Below are positions 7,166-30,315 of a stretch of DNA of 64,000 nucleotides, one piece after another (positions within the stretch are counted from its first letter, which is position 1; each line of letters opens with the position of its first letter). Made by a program: the position numbers and the translations under genes. The notes below the pieces were generated by a model that had not been told where the DNA came from, did not search any database, and saw only the letters and a list, made by a program, of their open reading frames with translations. Source of the DNA: Weizmannia acidilactici (GTDB taxonomy: Bacteria; Bacillota; Bacilli; Bacillales; Bacillaceae_C); the NCBI RefSeq assembly GCF_008974185.1, contig NZ_BKZP01000004.1, positions 62,001 through 126,000 of the forward strand, in the 5' to 3' direction.

Positions 7166-8341
7166 CTACCGGGGCTTTTTCTGCTTCACCTTTCCGTATT
7201 TTCCGCCGCCGCCCGAGTCAAGCGCCAGCATTCCTGCCCGTGCTTTTACGATCAGATCCGAAAGACTCAGGTTAACGACTTCACGAAGCGCCTCCTCCGG
7301 TACGCGGTGCAAAATATCCATCTCCGTCCCGAAATGGTCCAGTAGTTTTGCCATCGTTTTCGGTCCGAGACCTGGCAAAAACTCAAGCGGCACCTGGTGG
7401 ATATAAGGCGGGCGCGTGTTAAGCGGTTGGGCATCCGCCAATTCTTCAATCCGTCCGGAAACGCCTTTCGTTTTTAACGGGGACCCGCAATGCGGGCAAA
7501 TTCCACTTGAAACAGGCTGGCGGCATTTAGCGCACGTCGTTGTGTAATACTTCCCGAGTTTCGGGTTTAACCCGTAATTTGCGATGATCCGGTTCCCCCC
7601 CTCATTCCGGAACGCCTTTAAAAGAGCATTGAATGACGGAGACTCAAGTGCCACCATTTGGTATTCCCTCGCGATTTTTGCAAGCGAGTGCGCATCCGAA
7701 TTCGTCACAAATGGATAGCGGTGCAGCTCCCCGATCCGGTCCGCCATATCAGTATCGGAACTTAACCCGAGTTCTACGGCATCAATCAAATCCGGGTCAA
7801 GCACTTCTTCGAGCGACCGTTCCACCCCTTTTCCGTACAAGCTTTTAAAAGGGGTAAACACATGGGCGGGAATAAACATTCCATCCAGCGCCTTCACTTT
7901 TTGCTGCAGCTCTTTTGCCCCCGCGCGGATCCGCTGCGTGCTTAAATGCGGATTGGCAACACGCGCCGCATACCATCCGGAAAACGCATCAAGTGCTGCC
8001 AATTCCGGAAAATAGGCGAGCACATGGACCGGCCCCAGGCAATTTTCATCATAAACTTCAATTTCAACACCCGGGATCAGTGTGACTTTCCCCTGGTACA
8101 AAAGCCCGCCGCCTTTTAACGGGGCTAAACCGCCTGAACCGATAAGCGTTCTGATTTCTTCCCTTACTTCCGGTGAATGGCAGTCGATCACCCCGACAAT
8201 GTCCAACCCCTTCGGTTTTTTGGCCGCTTTTAAAATATTTTCAAGCGTGAGGCTTTGTGCACCCGTAATTTTTACCGGCCTGCCCATTTGCGTGCGCCCG
8301 ATATGGATATGCAGATCAGCAAAATAAGCCTCGTTGTTCAT
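7166..8341 (-). CDS. yqxK: Endonuclease Q family protein (YqxK, PHP domain)
   Basis: Predicted DNA-repair nuclease that nicks 5' of deaminated bases. That activity was shown for archaeal EndoQ and a Bacillus pumilus YqxK homologue; function here is by family. The 391 residues begin with a PHP metallo-hydrolase domain (DLHIH at 9-13, DCHSPE, TNSDAHS). A four-cysteine zinc finger follows near 277-295 (CAKC, CPHC), then a helix-hairpin-helix-like segment (LPGLGPKTMAKLL). The track-length frame allows 19 more residues, but MNNEAYFADLH fits the family and overlaps nudF by the usual ATGA. Coupled to nudF, another nucleotide-damage enzyme gene. Confidence 0.88.
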   Translation of the reverse strand: MNNEAYFADLHIHIGRTQMGRPVKITGAQSLTLENILKAAKKPKGLDIVGVIDCHSPEVREEIRTLIGSGGLAPLKGGGLLYQGKVTLIPGVEIEVYDENCLGPVHVLAYFPELAALDAFSGWYAARVANPHLSTQRIRAGAKELQQKVKALDGMFIPAHVFTPFKSLYGKGVERSLEEVLDPDLIDAVELGLSSDTDMADRIGELHRYPFVTNSDAHSLAKIAREYQMVALESPSFNALLKAFRNEGGNRIIANYGLNPKLGKYYTTTCAKCRQPVSSGICPHCGSPLKTKGVSGRIEELADAQPLNTRPPYIHQVPLEFLPGLGPKTMAKLLDHFGTEMDILHRVPEEALREVVNLSLSDLIVKARAGMLALDSGGGGKYGKVKQKKPR

Positions 8342-8886
8342 TTGTTTTCCCCCAGCAGGATCCAATGCTGAAGGGCGATGATCGTTTTGGCATCGCATAA
8401 TTTCCCCGACCGGAGCATCCCTTTCACCTCATCAAGACTGAATTCCAAAATGTCGACAAACTCATCGTCATCTCCCGCTTTCGGCTCTTCCAGTTTTTCA
8501 AGGCCTGTAGCCATATAAAGTCGGATCCATTCATCGGCAAAACCCGGCGAGGTGTAAAAAGCAGTTATCGGCTCCAATTTCCCGCACGCATAGCCGGTTT
8601 CTTCCTCGAGTTCACGCATCGCCGCCTCCAGCGGATCTTCCCCCGGTTCCAGTTTCCCGGCCGGAATTTCGATGAGCGCGCGCTCGGCCGCTTTCCGGTA
8701 TTGTTCGACCATGACAACTTTATTTTCTTTCGTGACAGCCAGCACAGCGACGGCACCAGGGTGCTTGATCACCTCGCGCTTTGATGTCTTCCCGTCCGAC
8801 AGCTCGACATCCAATACTTGCAAATGCAATATTTTCCCGTTAAAAATCTCTTCCACCTTCAACGTTTTTTCTTCGTATTTATGCAT
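8338..8886 (-). CDS. nudF: ADP-ribose pyrophosphatase (Nudix)
   Basis: Hydrolyses ADP-ribose to AMP and ribose-5-phosphate in the cytoplasm. The 182 residues contain an intact Nudix box near residues 78-100: G in GKLEPG, then REL, EE and TG at the required spacing. Its TGA overlaps the ATG of the downstream EndoQ-like gene in ATGA, so translation is probably coupled. Upstream, the minus strand has TGGTAAAAT at 8930-8938, an extended -10 without a clear -35, and this may be the promoter. Confidence 0.94.
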   Translation of the reverse strand: MHKYEEKTLKVEEIFNGKILHLQVLDVELSDGKTSKREVIKHPGAVAVLAVTKENKVVMVEQYRKAAERALIEIPAGKLEPGEDPLEAAMRELEEETGYACGKLEPITAFYTSPGFADEWIRLYMATGLEKLEEPKAGDDDEFVDILEFSLDEVKGMLRSGKLCDAKTIIALQHWILLGENK

Positions 8887-10078: not shown

Positions 10079-10086
10079 CCCTGCAC

Positions 10087-10122
10087 GGCAAAGGATGCGC
10101 GCCATTCTTTGCCATCTTATTT
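10087..10122 (+). terminator. Terminator of yqkF
   Basis: GGCAAAGGATG (10087-10097) pairs with CATTCTTTGCC (10103-10113) across a five-base loop with one wobble. ATCTTATTT follows. It insulates the sin locus from upstream transcription. Confidence 0.6.
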
Positions 10123-10159
10123 ATGCCCCCCGCGCAAAAAGCGTCACCTGAATCGTCCG

Positions 10160-10169
10160 TTTTCGACAA
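10160..10169 (-). promoter_or_regulatory. Upstream Spo0A box of the sinI promoter
   Basis: The minus strand reads TTGTCGAAAA, containing the Spo0A-box core TGTCGAA perfectly. It lies about 110 bases upstream of the putative sinI -35. In B. subtilis the sinI promoter is controlled by Spo0A~P through several such boxes. Confidence 0.6.
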
Positions 10170-10267
10170 TATTTGCGCCAACATTCTGCCCAGATCCCAA
10201 AATAATGGCACCCTTTGCCGATATAATAGGGGAAGAAAGGATGAATTTGTCATAACAATTTTTAGAT

Positions 10268-10277
10268 TTTTCGACAA
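10268..10277 (-). promoter_or_regulatory. Spo0A box overlapping the sinI -35 region
   Basis: The minus strand again reads TTGTCGAAAA with a perfect TGTCGAA core. It coincides with the proposed -35 hexamer (10271-10276). That placement is typical where Spo0A~P activates sigma-A polymerase at a weak -35. Confidence 0.6.
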
Positions 10278-10299
10278 ATTCCACCATCACGGATAGAAA
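10271..10299 (+). promoter_or_regulatory. Candidate sigma-A promoter of the sinI leader
   Basis: TCGACA (10271-10276) and TAGAAA (10294-10299) are separated by 17 bases. Transcription would begin near 10305, giving a leader of about 155 bases that contains the riboswitch. The weak -10 fits a promoter needing an activator. Confidence 0.45.
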
Positions 10300-10349
10300 A
10301 AATGTCTATATTCATAATGAACCGATTGTTCGGATACAAGGATTGGAGA

Positions 10350-10455
10350 AATCAGAAAAGAGCAAACCTTTTTGAAAAATAGAGGCGCAAAGCCACAGGT
10401 CTAAGGCGGAGGCTAAGACGGCTGGGCTGCCTGAAATACATTGTATTTTAGGAGG
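10350..10455 (+). ncRNA. Cyclic-di-GMP-I (GEMM-I) riboswitch in the sinI leader
   Basis: The aptamer carries the class-I signature in order: GCAAACC (10362-10368), a GAAA tetraloop arm (10374-10377), GCAAAGCCAC (from 10387), GTCTAAGG (10399-10406) and GGCTGGGCTGCC (10420-10431). P1 can close through TCAG (10352-10355) with CTGA (10431-10434). The same CTGA is also part of an alternative ten-base-pair hairpin (10430-10439 with 10443-10452) that buries the AGG of the sinI ribosome site AGGAGG (10450-10455). Ligand binding should favour P1 and expose the site, so this looks like a translational ON switch (inference). No cobalamin, guanidine or other class fits the signature. Confidence 0.88.
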
Positions 10456-10462
10456 AATGAGG

Positions 10463-10609
10463 ATGAAGCCTGATGTTCAATATTCCAATAAACAGTTGGA
10501 TCAGGAATGGGTGCATCTCATCAGCATGGCAAAAAACAAGGGGCTGTCGGTCGCCGAATTCCATTCTTTTTTAAGAAAGAAAAAAGCAAAAGGCAATCAT
10601 AAAGGCTGA
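10463..10609 (+). CDS. sinI: SinI-type antirepressor
   Basis: A 48-residue protein that would bind SinR and relieve repression of biofilm-matrix genes. It contains the SinI helix-hook signature: LDQEWVHLISMAKNKGLSVAEFHSFLRKKK is read at residues 12-41 as core LDQEW, then the second amphipathic helix. The ATG at 10463 is seven bases from AGGAGG; an ATG six bases earlier is too close to it. Located directly behind the c-di-GMP-I riboswitch and about 100 bases before sinR, the order of the B. subtilis sin operon. Translation is probably gated by the leader. Confidence 0.88.
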   Translation: MKPDVQYSNKQLDQEWVHLISMAKNKGLSVAEFHSFLRKKKAKGNHKG

Positions 10610-10680
10610 CGAACTTAGGAACGATTTTTGGGGGGTTGTGAATTTTTTTGTTCTAGATATGAAACATATTCTTCGTTATA

Positions 10681-10689
10681 TGCTATAAT
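10681..10689 (+). promoter_or_regulatory. Extended -10 promoter of sinR
   Basis: TGCTATAAT gives an extended -10 (TATAAT at 10684-10689). The -35 (GAAACA, 10661-10666, spacing 17) is poor. A GTTCTAG at about 10650 partly matches the SinR site GTTCTYT. It would allow SinR to be made independently of sinI, as in B. subtilis. Confidence 0.6.
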
Positions 10690-10711
10690 AAAACGGAGGT
10701 AGGTGACGTGC

Positions 10712-11041
10712 ATGATTGGCGAACGAATTAAAAGCTACCGCCTGAAAAAAGAACTGTCTTTATCTGAATTGGCTGAAAAAGCAGGCGTGGCAAAATCTTA
10801 TTTAAGTTCCATTGAACGGAATATCCAAACCAACCCATCCATTCAATTTCTCGAAAAAATTTCCCAGGTGCTCGGGGTGTCTATCGGTGTCTTGCTCCAC
10901 GACCAAATAGATGAGAAAGAAACAACAGAACTTGATGCCGAGTGGGAACAGCTGGTCATTGAAGCCATGCATTCCGGTGTATCCAAAGAAGAATTTCGGG
11001 AATTCCTCGAATATAACAAATGGAAAATGGGGCGAAAGTAA
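10712..11041 (+). CDS. sinR: Master biofilm repressor SinR
   Basis: DNA-binding tetramer that represses matrix operons and is inactivated by SinI. The 109 residues have an N-terminal Xre-type helix-turn-helix (SLSELAEKAGVAKSYLSSIE is within about 16-35, very close to B. subtilis SinR). A C-terminal SinI-like oligomerisation segment follows (LDAEWEQLVIEAMHSGVSKEEFREFL). The ATG at 10712 matches the family start; a GTG three codons earlier is possible. The ribosome site is GGAGGTAGGTGA. A hairpin terminator follows at 11058. Confidence 0.95.
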   Translation: MIGERIKSYRLKKELSLSELAEKAGVAKSYLSSIERNIQTNPSIQFLEKISQVLGVSIGVLLHDQIDEKETTELDAEWEQLVIEAMHSGVSKEEFREFLEYNKWKMGRK

Positions 11042-11057
11042 AAGCACAGGCAGTTGC

Positions 11058-11084
11058 GCAAAAAGCGGCTGCTTTTGCTTTATT
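11058..11084 (+). terminator. Terminator of sinR
   Basis: GCAAAAAGC (11058-11066) pairs with GCTTTTGC (11071-11078) with one bulged A and a GGCT loop. TTTATTTG follows. Confidence 0.6.
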
Positions 11085-11516
11085 TGCCGAGGCGGGCGGT
11101 GTTTTTCCGCGCCGGCAATCAAGCAAGGCCGGCCCCCTGCCAGGAACCAATTCTGTTTGCACGTTTGTATCCGGCATTGCTGCCCCTTTTTCTGTGTTAT
11201 TTTTGCCTGGAGCAGCCTTGTTTACAGCTGTTTTGGCGTTTTCGGTGTTTTGCTTCGCTGTGCTGCTTTGTGACGATTGGTGCGCTTTTTCCACCCCGGA
11301 TTTCCCGCTTTTCACCTATACCCCTTTCTGTTCCCTCCCTGGATTTTCCAGTAGTCCTTTTTAGAGAACAAATCCATCCTCCTTTTATCTATTTTTTATA
11401 ATTAAAACAGTGAAAATGTGCATTTTATCAGCGTTTGTTTTAACGATCTGCACAACTTGAATATACGAAAGCACGTTAATTTTGTATAACTTTAAAAAAG
11501 TGGTATTTTCTTAATT
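11085..11516 (-). other. Gene-poor stretch with a degenerate minus-strand small ORF
   Basis: No convincing plus-strand gene is present. On the minus strand AAAAGGAGG leads into an ORF (MDLFSKKDYWK..., from about 11361) that stops after 21 codons. A hydrophilic frame then starts at GTG 11313-11315 and contains KQNTENAKTAVNKAAPGK and PDTNVQTEL. These faintly recall gamma-type small acid-soluble spore proteins. That frame runs on through the sinR terminator, so it is not an intact gene. A GTTCTCT SinR-type heptamer lies at 11363-11369. It may be the remains of a small spore or matrix gene; function unknown. Confidence 0.25.
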
Positions 11517-11637: not shown

Positions 11638-11981
11638 ATGATCGGGAAAAAGATAAAAGAACTCCGCCTGAAAAAAGGCTACTGCTACTCGATTACACAC
11701 TGGCGGGCCGGCGTGTCGAAATCTTATTTAAGTTATATTGAACGAAACATCCGCAATAACCCTTCCCTTGAGTTTCTCGCAAAAATCGCGCGCCCGCTTG
11801 ATACAACGGTCGAATATTTGCTGCTTGATGTGCTTGCGGAAAAAACTTGGCGGAAGACACTTTTGACGAGAAGTGGATCGAACTTTTAAGGAAGGTCATT
11901 GATGAGGGGATGAAAAAAGAGGATTTCATCAAGATGAAGGAATTTATCAAGTTTAAAAACTGGCAAGATTCAAACAAATAA
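11638..11981 (+). pseudogene. Frameshifted SinR/SlrR-like regulator
   Basis: The N-terminal half reads as a SinR-type helix-turn-helix: MIGKKIKELRLKKGY, then SKSYLSYIERN. Residues 16-23 (CYSITHWR) replace the expected SLSELAEK, as if two indels had scrambled helix 2. After about 72 codons the frame stops at 11889. The missing C-terminal half (DEKWIELLRKVIDEGMKKEDF...) continues in another frame from about 11853 to the TAA at 11979-11981. AAGGAG precedes the ATG. Together the two parts equal full SinR length (about 114 codons). It resembles slrR relative to sinR in B. subtilis. Sequencing error at one site cannot be excluded, but two lesions favour decay. Confidence 0.75.
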
Positions 11982-11998
11982 AATTGGAGGAATTGACT

Positions 11999-12150
11999 AT
12001 GGATATTGCGCACAGCCAAAAAAAGAATGGATGCTGCTGTTGAAAGAAGCGAGGGAGATCGGGATTTCCGCTGAAGACATCCGTGCTTTCCTCCGCAGTT
12101 CTGCAAAGCAAACACAACCCAAAAAAGAAACCGGGCGGCCAGAACCATGA
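11999..12150 (+). pseudogene. SinI/SlrA-like antirepressor frameshifted in an A7 run
   Basis: An ATG with TTGGAGGAA upstream opens a frame that ends after 14 codons. Adding one base to the A7 run at 12018-12024 yields a complete 50-residue SinI-like protein. Its core would be KKEWMLLLKEAREIGISAED, followed by IRAFLRSSAK. It ends at the TGA 12148-12150. It directly follows the sinR-like pseudogene, so the pair looks like a duplicated sin module in reversed order. A homopolymer slip could be a real null mutation, a phase-variable site or a read error. Confidence 0.7.
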
Positions 12151-30071: not shown

Positions 30072-30315
30072 TTTTCCCTTCCTTTCTTGCTTGTACTACT
30101 GTTACAGACTATCATAGCAGGATTTACCGCCACCTTTCAAACGTTCTGTTTGGCGCTGCATTTTTTTGCTTATTCATAGTAAAATGTGTAAAAAACTTGC
30201 CAAAAGGCGTTTATTTTCTTTGAATCCGGGGTACAATAATAGTACATCTAGATCCATACCCCTAAACTCCCTAGATGCTTTGGATAGCGGTTTCTCGCTG
30301 TCCCTTTTTATGCCG

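Follow-up and report, generated by a model that had tools for sequence, protein, structure and literature searches.

A conserved c-di-GMP-I-type riboswitch precedes sinI in a Heyndrickxia-like genome and many relatives and probably controls SinI translation

The window analyzed here is a 64,000-nt stretch of Weizmannia acidilactici DNA (contig NZ_BKZP01000004.1), taken from a Heyndrickxia-like draft genome of 3.19 Mb in 123 contigs, among whose genus-mates are H. ginsengihumi and H. acidiproducens. Its plus strand carries, in this order, a c-di-GMP-I (GEMM-I) aptamer (10351-10434), a Shine-Dalgarno sequence AGGAGG (10450-10455), sinI (10463-10609, 48 codons plus stop) and, adjoining it downstream, sinR (10712-11041), in which Pfam recognizes an HTH_3 domain and a SinI-type dimerisation domain. 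The aptamer ends 15 nt before the Shine-Dalgarno sequence and 28 nt before sinI, and a hairpin (10430-10452, +; CCTGAAATAC, loop ATT, GTATTTTAGG), found by folding, shuffles and pattern search, extends from the end of the aptamer into the Shine-Dalgarno sequence, whose AGG forms part of the 3' arm. As assessed by cmscan, the aptamer belongs to RF01051, with 61.8 bits (E 1.1e-9; gathering score 35 bits), the match covering all 87 model positions (1-87). Pfam assigns the product of 10463-10606, 48 residues long, to the SinI family (PF08671) with 35.2 bits, above the cut-off of 31.4. A preliminary description of this DNA had proposed a class-I aptamer before a 48-codon sinI whose ATG (10463) follows AGGAGG by seven bases, and this arrangement holds in full, with a significant Rfam match. 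The class-I signature strings that it named are likewise all present, but it overlooked an AG in place of the conserved GG before CAAA and the two non-standard pairs that P2 has in Rfam's alignment.

Further downstream lie a second SinR-like gene (11638-11981, +; its pieces were searched apart and not joined) and a second SinI-like gene (12000-12150, +; ORFs and domain search, with the SinI domain at 12031-12150), each with a frameshift near an A run. This interrupted pair (11638-12150) represents either pseudogenes or homopolymer errors of the draft assembly; second pairs near sinR also occur in other genera (e.g. loci L127 and L134). Elsewhere in the window of this Heyndrickxia-like genome, Rfam sbrA, named as a Listeria sRNA, matches with 76.2 bits (cut-off 45) at 30242-30310 (+). 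The genome encodes four GGDEF domains, three EAL domains and one TasA-family protein; the TasA-family match, on contig C50 of the draft (8193-8780), contains one TAG.

When the window aptamer is read by eye with the Vc2 numbering of PMC3764141, A47, C92, C44 and the GAAA tetraloop are intact, and the ligand-contacting G20 is replaced, according to the Rfam alignment, by an A at 10361 (+). The genome has only one other RF01051 match (contig C10, 73419-73502, minus strand; 60 bits; loci L002 and L102), which also carries A20 and directly precedes a SinI-like ORF scoring 24.1 bits against Pfam, below the cut-off. This second riboswitch-sinI copy has no sinR beside it and no hairpin, and of the ORFs flanking it, one looks by eye like a surface protein and the other like a lactate dehydrogenase. 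The two aptamers share 79% identity and are not each other's nearest neighbours.

The pairing of aptamer and gene is conserved well beyond the window. Among 34 genomes of the family, 33 contain RF01051 matches (102 in all, one below the cut-off), of which 25, in 24 genomes, directly precede a SinI ORF as recognized by a profile built from five seeds. The ORF as found begins 7-35 nt past the aptamer in 23 of these 25 cases; the remaining two (genomes G013 and G018) have aptamers with an insertion, and sinI follows after about 30 nt. RF01051 is absent from all 14 control genomes, B. subtilis included. A search for named relatives with the SinI protein of the window alone returned 109 pattern-matching stretches, none of which was confirmed; alignment of SinR worked instead and gave 116 confirmed relatives, the best 80 of which were taken, from genomes that partly overlap the family set. 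Thirty-eight of these best 80 sinR loci contain 39 c-di-GMP-I or c-di-GMP-I-GGC matches at the gathering score (L126 being counted with its full aptamer), and all 38 have a same-strand SinI-scoring ORF at or just behind the aptamer, with sinI before or opposite sinR; at eight loci the ORF finder had picked an in-frame start inside the aptamer. The genera concerned include Heyndrickxia, Lederbergia, Siminovitchia, Rossellomorea, Mesobacillus and Peribacillus, and further Pseudalkalibacillus, Alkalihalobacillus, Thalassobacillus, Terrihalobacillus and Evansella. The 42 unmatched loci comprise 17 that lack a SinI ORF beside sinR, among them all 14 from Halobacillus, and 25 in which a SinI ORF is present and no class match reaches the gathering score. 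Thus, sinI stands beside sinR in 63 of the best 80 loci, with the riboswitch in 38 and without it in 25.

At the level of the order, a strict pattern of aptamer end plus hairpin was found in 50 of the 397 genomes searched, at one place each and in 15 of 135 genera, whereas the reversed pattern, used as a control, occurs in none of the 397. sinI lies behind all 47 pattern places outside the window's family (43 recognized by script and four by reading translations). A c-di-GMP-I-clan match was found in all 20 scanned of those 47 places, abutting the hairpin in 19 and lying about 155 nt further upstream in the last (L217). The placement before sinI is confirmed, and a regulatory reading of it is well supported by sequence conservation.

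Several relatives carry unusual arrangements of the aptamer. Two sinI aptamers have insertions in P3, of about 265 nt in L126 (851-1186) and about 98 nt in L130 (901-1083), and that in L126 holds a Bacillaceae-1 RNA (RF01690) at 931-997, i.e. a structured RNA inside a riboswitch. The short aptamers (63 nt) seen in G013 and G018 could be read as decayed, but this was rejected, since in their named copies, L130 and L126, the aptamer is complete on both sides of the P3 insertion. Locus L141, from an Alkalihalobacillus macyae MAG, has two aptamers (449-539 and 1153-1240), one before sinI and the other some 255 nt upstream of sinR. A stretch with one transposase-like ORF, recognized by eye, appears to split the locus of H. 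sporothermodurans DSM 10599 (contig C1, about 3252600-3254620; L077 and L117). On one side of it is an intact aptamer, still standing behind tandem Spo0A boxes, and on the other are sinI and the 3' half of the hairpin, so that sensor and gene would have been parted naturally. H. acidiproducens DSM 23148, the nearest named SinR relative (86% identity), has before sinI a remnant (L109, about 1140-1250) that aligns by eye with the aptamer but shows no match to the class, even with E raised to 5. Since only this remnant is left, selection for the aptamer can be lost in the lineage, and the switch is thus common but dispensable.

Such losses suggest that the aptamer might also be a relic in the window species, unresponsive to any ligand, with sinI either constitutive or driven purely by Spo0A. 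Besides the remnant in H. acidiproducens, this reading could draw on the A20 substitution, on the two P2 mismatches of the window copy, on the lack of a SinR match at E 1e-15 in two of the five genomes of the genus, and on the scores of the two aptamers of this genome (61.8 and 60 bits), which are the lowest of the family's uninterrupted sinI aptamers (64.8-86.6 bits for the other 21). Against it, all 87 model positions are matched, A47, C92, C44 and the tetraloop are preserved, the hairpin is perfect and the second aptamer of the genome again precedes a sinI-like ORF, and we consider a relic unlikely.

Aptamer and hairpin together suggest an expression platform. The hairpin of the window has a perfect stem of 10 bp in the RNA (CCUGAAAUAC, loop AUU, GUAUUUUAGG), the last three bases of which are the first AGG of AGGAGG. 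Its first two bases, the CC that ends the aptamer (10430-10431, +), occupy invariant columns of the alignment, being present in all 23 aligned sinI leaders of the family, and in the numbering of PMC3764141 they correspond to C92, which contacts the ligand from J3-1, and to C93, the partner of G14 in the apex pair of P1 (PMC3764141). Aptamer fold and hairpin are therefore mutually exclusive, and the predicted hairpin is an anti-Shine-Dalgarno element incompatible with the ligand-bound fold. Local folding predicts this pairing of the CC with the Shine-Dalgarno sequence for 20 of the 23 family leaders. Across 45 distinct platforms drawn from 61 leaders (L126 with its full aptamer, the second aptamer of L141 left out), this pairing is predicted in 31, whereas 100 shuffles of the spacer letters between CC and Shine-Dalgarno sequence gave 16.3 on average and never more than 26. 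The platforms share ancestry, so that counts made on them are not independent. Among the 14 platforms without the pairing, eight are from Pseudalkalibacillus or Alkalihalobacillus. In the predicted structures of the 31 pairing platforms, stem pairs vary compensatorily on both sides (e.g. pair 3 is U-A in 21, U-G in six and C-G in four), and 29 loops measure 3-7 nt; pairs were counted on the individual predicted hairpins, the MAFFT platform alignment having put the arms out of register. As this pair count leans on the structures predicted for the 31 pairing platforms, the shuffles are the fairer test.

Termination of transcription was considered and rejected: AGG rather than a U run follows the hairpin, and a scan of the sequence from aptamer to sinI showed no terminator-like site. 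A consensus scan of 10080-11100 found no promoter-like site, and with only 15 nt between aptamer and Shine-Dalgarno sequence, transcription is unlikely to start past the aptamer.

Since the final CC serves both aptamer and hairpin, ligand binding should free the Shine-Dalgarno sequence. Ensemble folding, in which the CC and the two preceding bases were kept unpaired in a thermodynamic model that itself contains no ligand, agrees with this direction. For the free leader of the window, the probability that the CC pairs with the Shine-Dalgarno sequence is 0.97, and the openness of the latter rises from 0.44 to 0.75 when the CC is held. The mean over the 23 leaders rises from 0.39 to 0.65, with an increase in 18, a decrease in four (L002, L018, L052 and L062) and no change in one. 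The four decreases, one of them in the second copy of this genome, together with the fact that c-di-GMP-I-type riboswitches are reported to act both ways (PMC9262584), leave some room for a switch of the opposite or of another kind, in which the bound leader lowers SinI or the hairpin protects the mRNA from nucleases or exposes it to them. Such a switch seems to us improbable, given that the hairpin uses exactly the two C of the ligand-bound fold and covers part of the Shine-Dalgarno sequence, that ON is the predicted direction for the window and for 18 of the 23 leaders in all, and that ON agrees with c-di-GMP promoting biofilm.

We infer the following course for a translational ON switch. 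With no ligand, the 3' CC would leave the aptamer and pair with the Shine-Dalgarno AGG to nucleate the hairpin, and translation of sinI would be hindered. With ligand present, C92 would hold it and C93 would close P1, so that the hairpin would lose its base and the freed Shine-Dalgarno sequence would allow SinI to be made. SinI would then titrate SinR, encoded beside it, and matrix genes, of which the TasA-family gene may be one, would be derepressed. This model would be a plain one, in which the ligand-binding CC of the aptamer doubles as an anti-Shine-Dalgarno sequence. It is in line with a report that raised c-di-GMP raises sinI expression in B. thuringiensis (PMC7793685). That a cyclic dinucleotide controls SinI is the best reading of the locus, given that the riboswitch does lie directly before sinI and that this placement is widely conserved. 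Judging from sequence and folding models, we put the probability that the sinI leader is a translational ON switch, responding to a cyclic dinucleotide (most likely c-di-GMP) and feeding the SinI:SinR ratio, at roughly 0.7.

The identity of the ligand calls for more caution. The preliminary description had c-di-GMP itself setting the SinI:SinR ratio; a survey of sinI leaders in relatives upholds the placement on which this was based (24 of 34 family genomes; 38 of the best 80 named sinR loci), but affinity or specificity for c-di-GMP is not to be assumed in the window genome, because A20 replaces G20 in both of its aptamers. Among the 25 sinI aptamers of the family, G20 is found in 22, i.e. 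in all but one of the 23 from other genomes, and A20 in three, the third being that of G013. The 77 other family aptamers have G in 64 and A in three, with 10 unreadable. Among 47 sinI aptamers from the rest of the order, G20 is present in 46 and one is unreadable. Position 20 is unreadable in eight of the 39 aptamers from named loci, in which a lone T (L145) is probably misread. A G20 mutation reportedly weakened c-di-GMP binding by Vc2 30,000-fold, while the equivalent change in Vc1 did not abolish binding (PMC4744006); another study describes the equivalent position as a factor in selectivity, not a strict filter (PMC9262584). G20 and C92 are also reported to be less conserved than A47 (PMC9049102), and A20 therefore weakens the claim as to ligand and affinity, not membership in the family.

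An A at this position is also the base by which GEMM-Ib is recognized, since it equals A14 by the A47/A41 offset from PMC6274999, and a class-I aptamer with G20A binds 3',3'-cGAMP (PMC6274999, PMC7288161). As A20 thus permits 3',3'-cGAMP in this aptamer class, a cGAMP synthase was sought. Hypr cGAMP synthases have Ser where canonical GGDEF domains have Asp (PMC8835794, PMC6456294); none of the four GGDEF domains of the window genome is of the Hypr type, all four keeping the canonical Asp, and SMODS nucleotidyltransferase (PF18144), the sole CD-NTase family searched, has no match in the genome at E 0.001. In light of these searches, we regard it as quite improbable that the two sinI aptamers of this genome have changed their ligand or their range, i.e. 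that they accept 3',3'-cGAMP or answer only high c-di-GMP, even though A20 is shared by both of them and is rare elsewhere. A change of ligand in this genome is possible but not favoured, and a weaker or shifted response to c-di-GMP is more likely than such a change. That both sinI aptamers have shifted to another cyclic dinucleotide (3',3'-cGAMP or a mixed one) made by an unrecognised synthase is very improbable, for all that it would mean a SinI biofilm switch rewired from c-di-GMP, used in many members of the order, to a different second messenger.

The translational ON switch would act on a transcript that Spo0A probably still drives. Upstream of the aptamer, the window has two copies of the heptamer TTCGACA (minus strand), the reverse complement of TGTCGAA, which we take to be the Spo0A-box consensus, at 10162-10168 and 10270-10276, 189 and 81 nt before the aptamer, respectively. 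Of 24 sinI leaders of the family, 15 carry a degenerate form, WTCGACA, in the same orientation and 50-110 nt upstream of the aptamer, versus nine of 77 other c-di-GMP-I leaders, the position window having been chosen after the loose count was seen and one leader having been dropped because its contig begins 9 nt before the aptamer. The exact heptamer is found at -105 to -55 in 11 of 24 sinI leaders versus 12 of 77 others, and anywhere in the 250 nt upstream, on either strand, in 12 of 25 versus 18 of 77. Seven of the 24 leaders show, by eye, the exact tandem TTCGACATCGACA. These boxes speak against a riboswitch standing here in place of Spo0A, with one exact heptamer at 10270-10276 and boxes at that distance in many relatives. 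Because Spo0A boxes are kept upstream, c-di-GMP would add to Spo0A and not replace it. With Spo0A acting on transcription and c-di-GMP on translation, SinI would depend on both signals, which, if true, would make the sinI leader a two-input gate.

The preliminary description knew of no account of the riboswitch-sinI link; however, "(c-di-GMP)-sinI" is listed for B. methanolicus MGA3 in Table 4 of an RNA-seq study from 2015 (PMC4342826), and the link itself is thus already in print. As in the window, a riboswitch of the same ligand class lies there in the 5'-UTR of sinI, and the pairing was found by comparing mapped 5'-UTRs longer than 100 nt with Rfam (PMC4342826). That source gives it a table line and part of a sentence, and in its available text the mechanism, the platform, the Spo0A boxes and the distribution are absent (PMC4342826). 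Among the available portions of the open-access literature, we found no dedicated study of the link. Added here are the mechanism proposed, the probable co-control by Spo0A, the distribution, the second copy and A20.

Among characterized riboswitches, Vc2 of Vibrio cholerae shares the architecture of the window aptamer, with corresponding A47, C92, C93, C44 and GAAA tetraloop (PMC3764141), whereas the window has A20 and a different gene and platform. Bacillus thuringiensis likewise has c-di-GMP riboswitches, Bc1, Bc2 and Bc3-5, of which Bc2 precedes an adhesion gene; in contrast to the window, Bc1 acts through terminators, and none of Bc1-Bc5 is described as lying before sinI in the text available (PMC11218506). 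The 3',3'-cGAMP riboswitches of Geobacter (GEMM-Ib) resemble the window aptamer in having A at the position equivalent to 20, but no Hypr GGDEF or SMODS synthase to go with such a ligand was found in the window genome. Moreover, the window aptamer has GC just before AAA, the ordinary c-di-GMP-I form, and Geobacter GEMM-Ib aptamers have other letters there. Bacillus subtilis has the same sinI-sinR pair, and its sinI is activated by Spo0A (PMC8876208); unlike the window genome, it has no RF01051 match, and c-di-GMP is said not to control its biofilm (PMC4879592). The same sinI switch carries a built-in sensor, most likely for a cyclic dinucleotide, in many genera of the order, with the Spo0A boxes kept in many of them. 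If this switch works as proposed here, B. subtilis, the model organism, would be an exception, and in these relatives c-di-GMP would feed directly into the SinI:SinR ratio.
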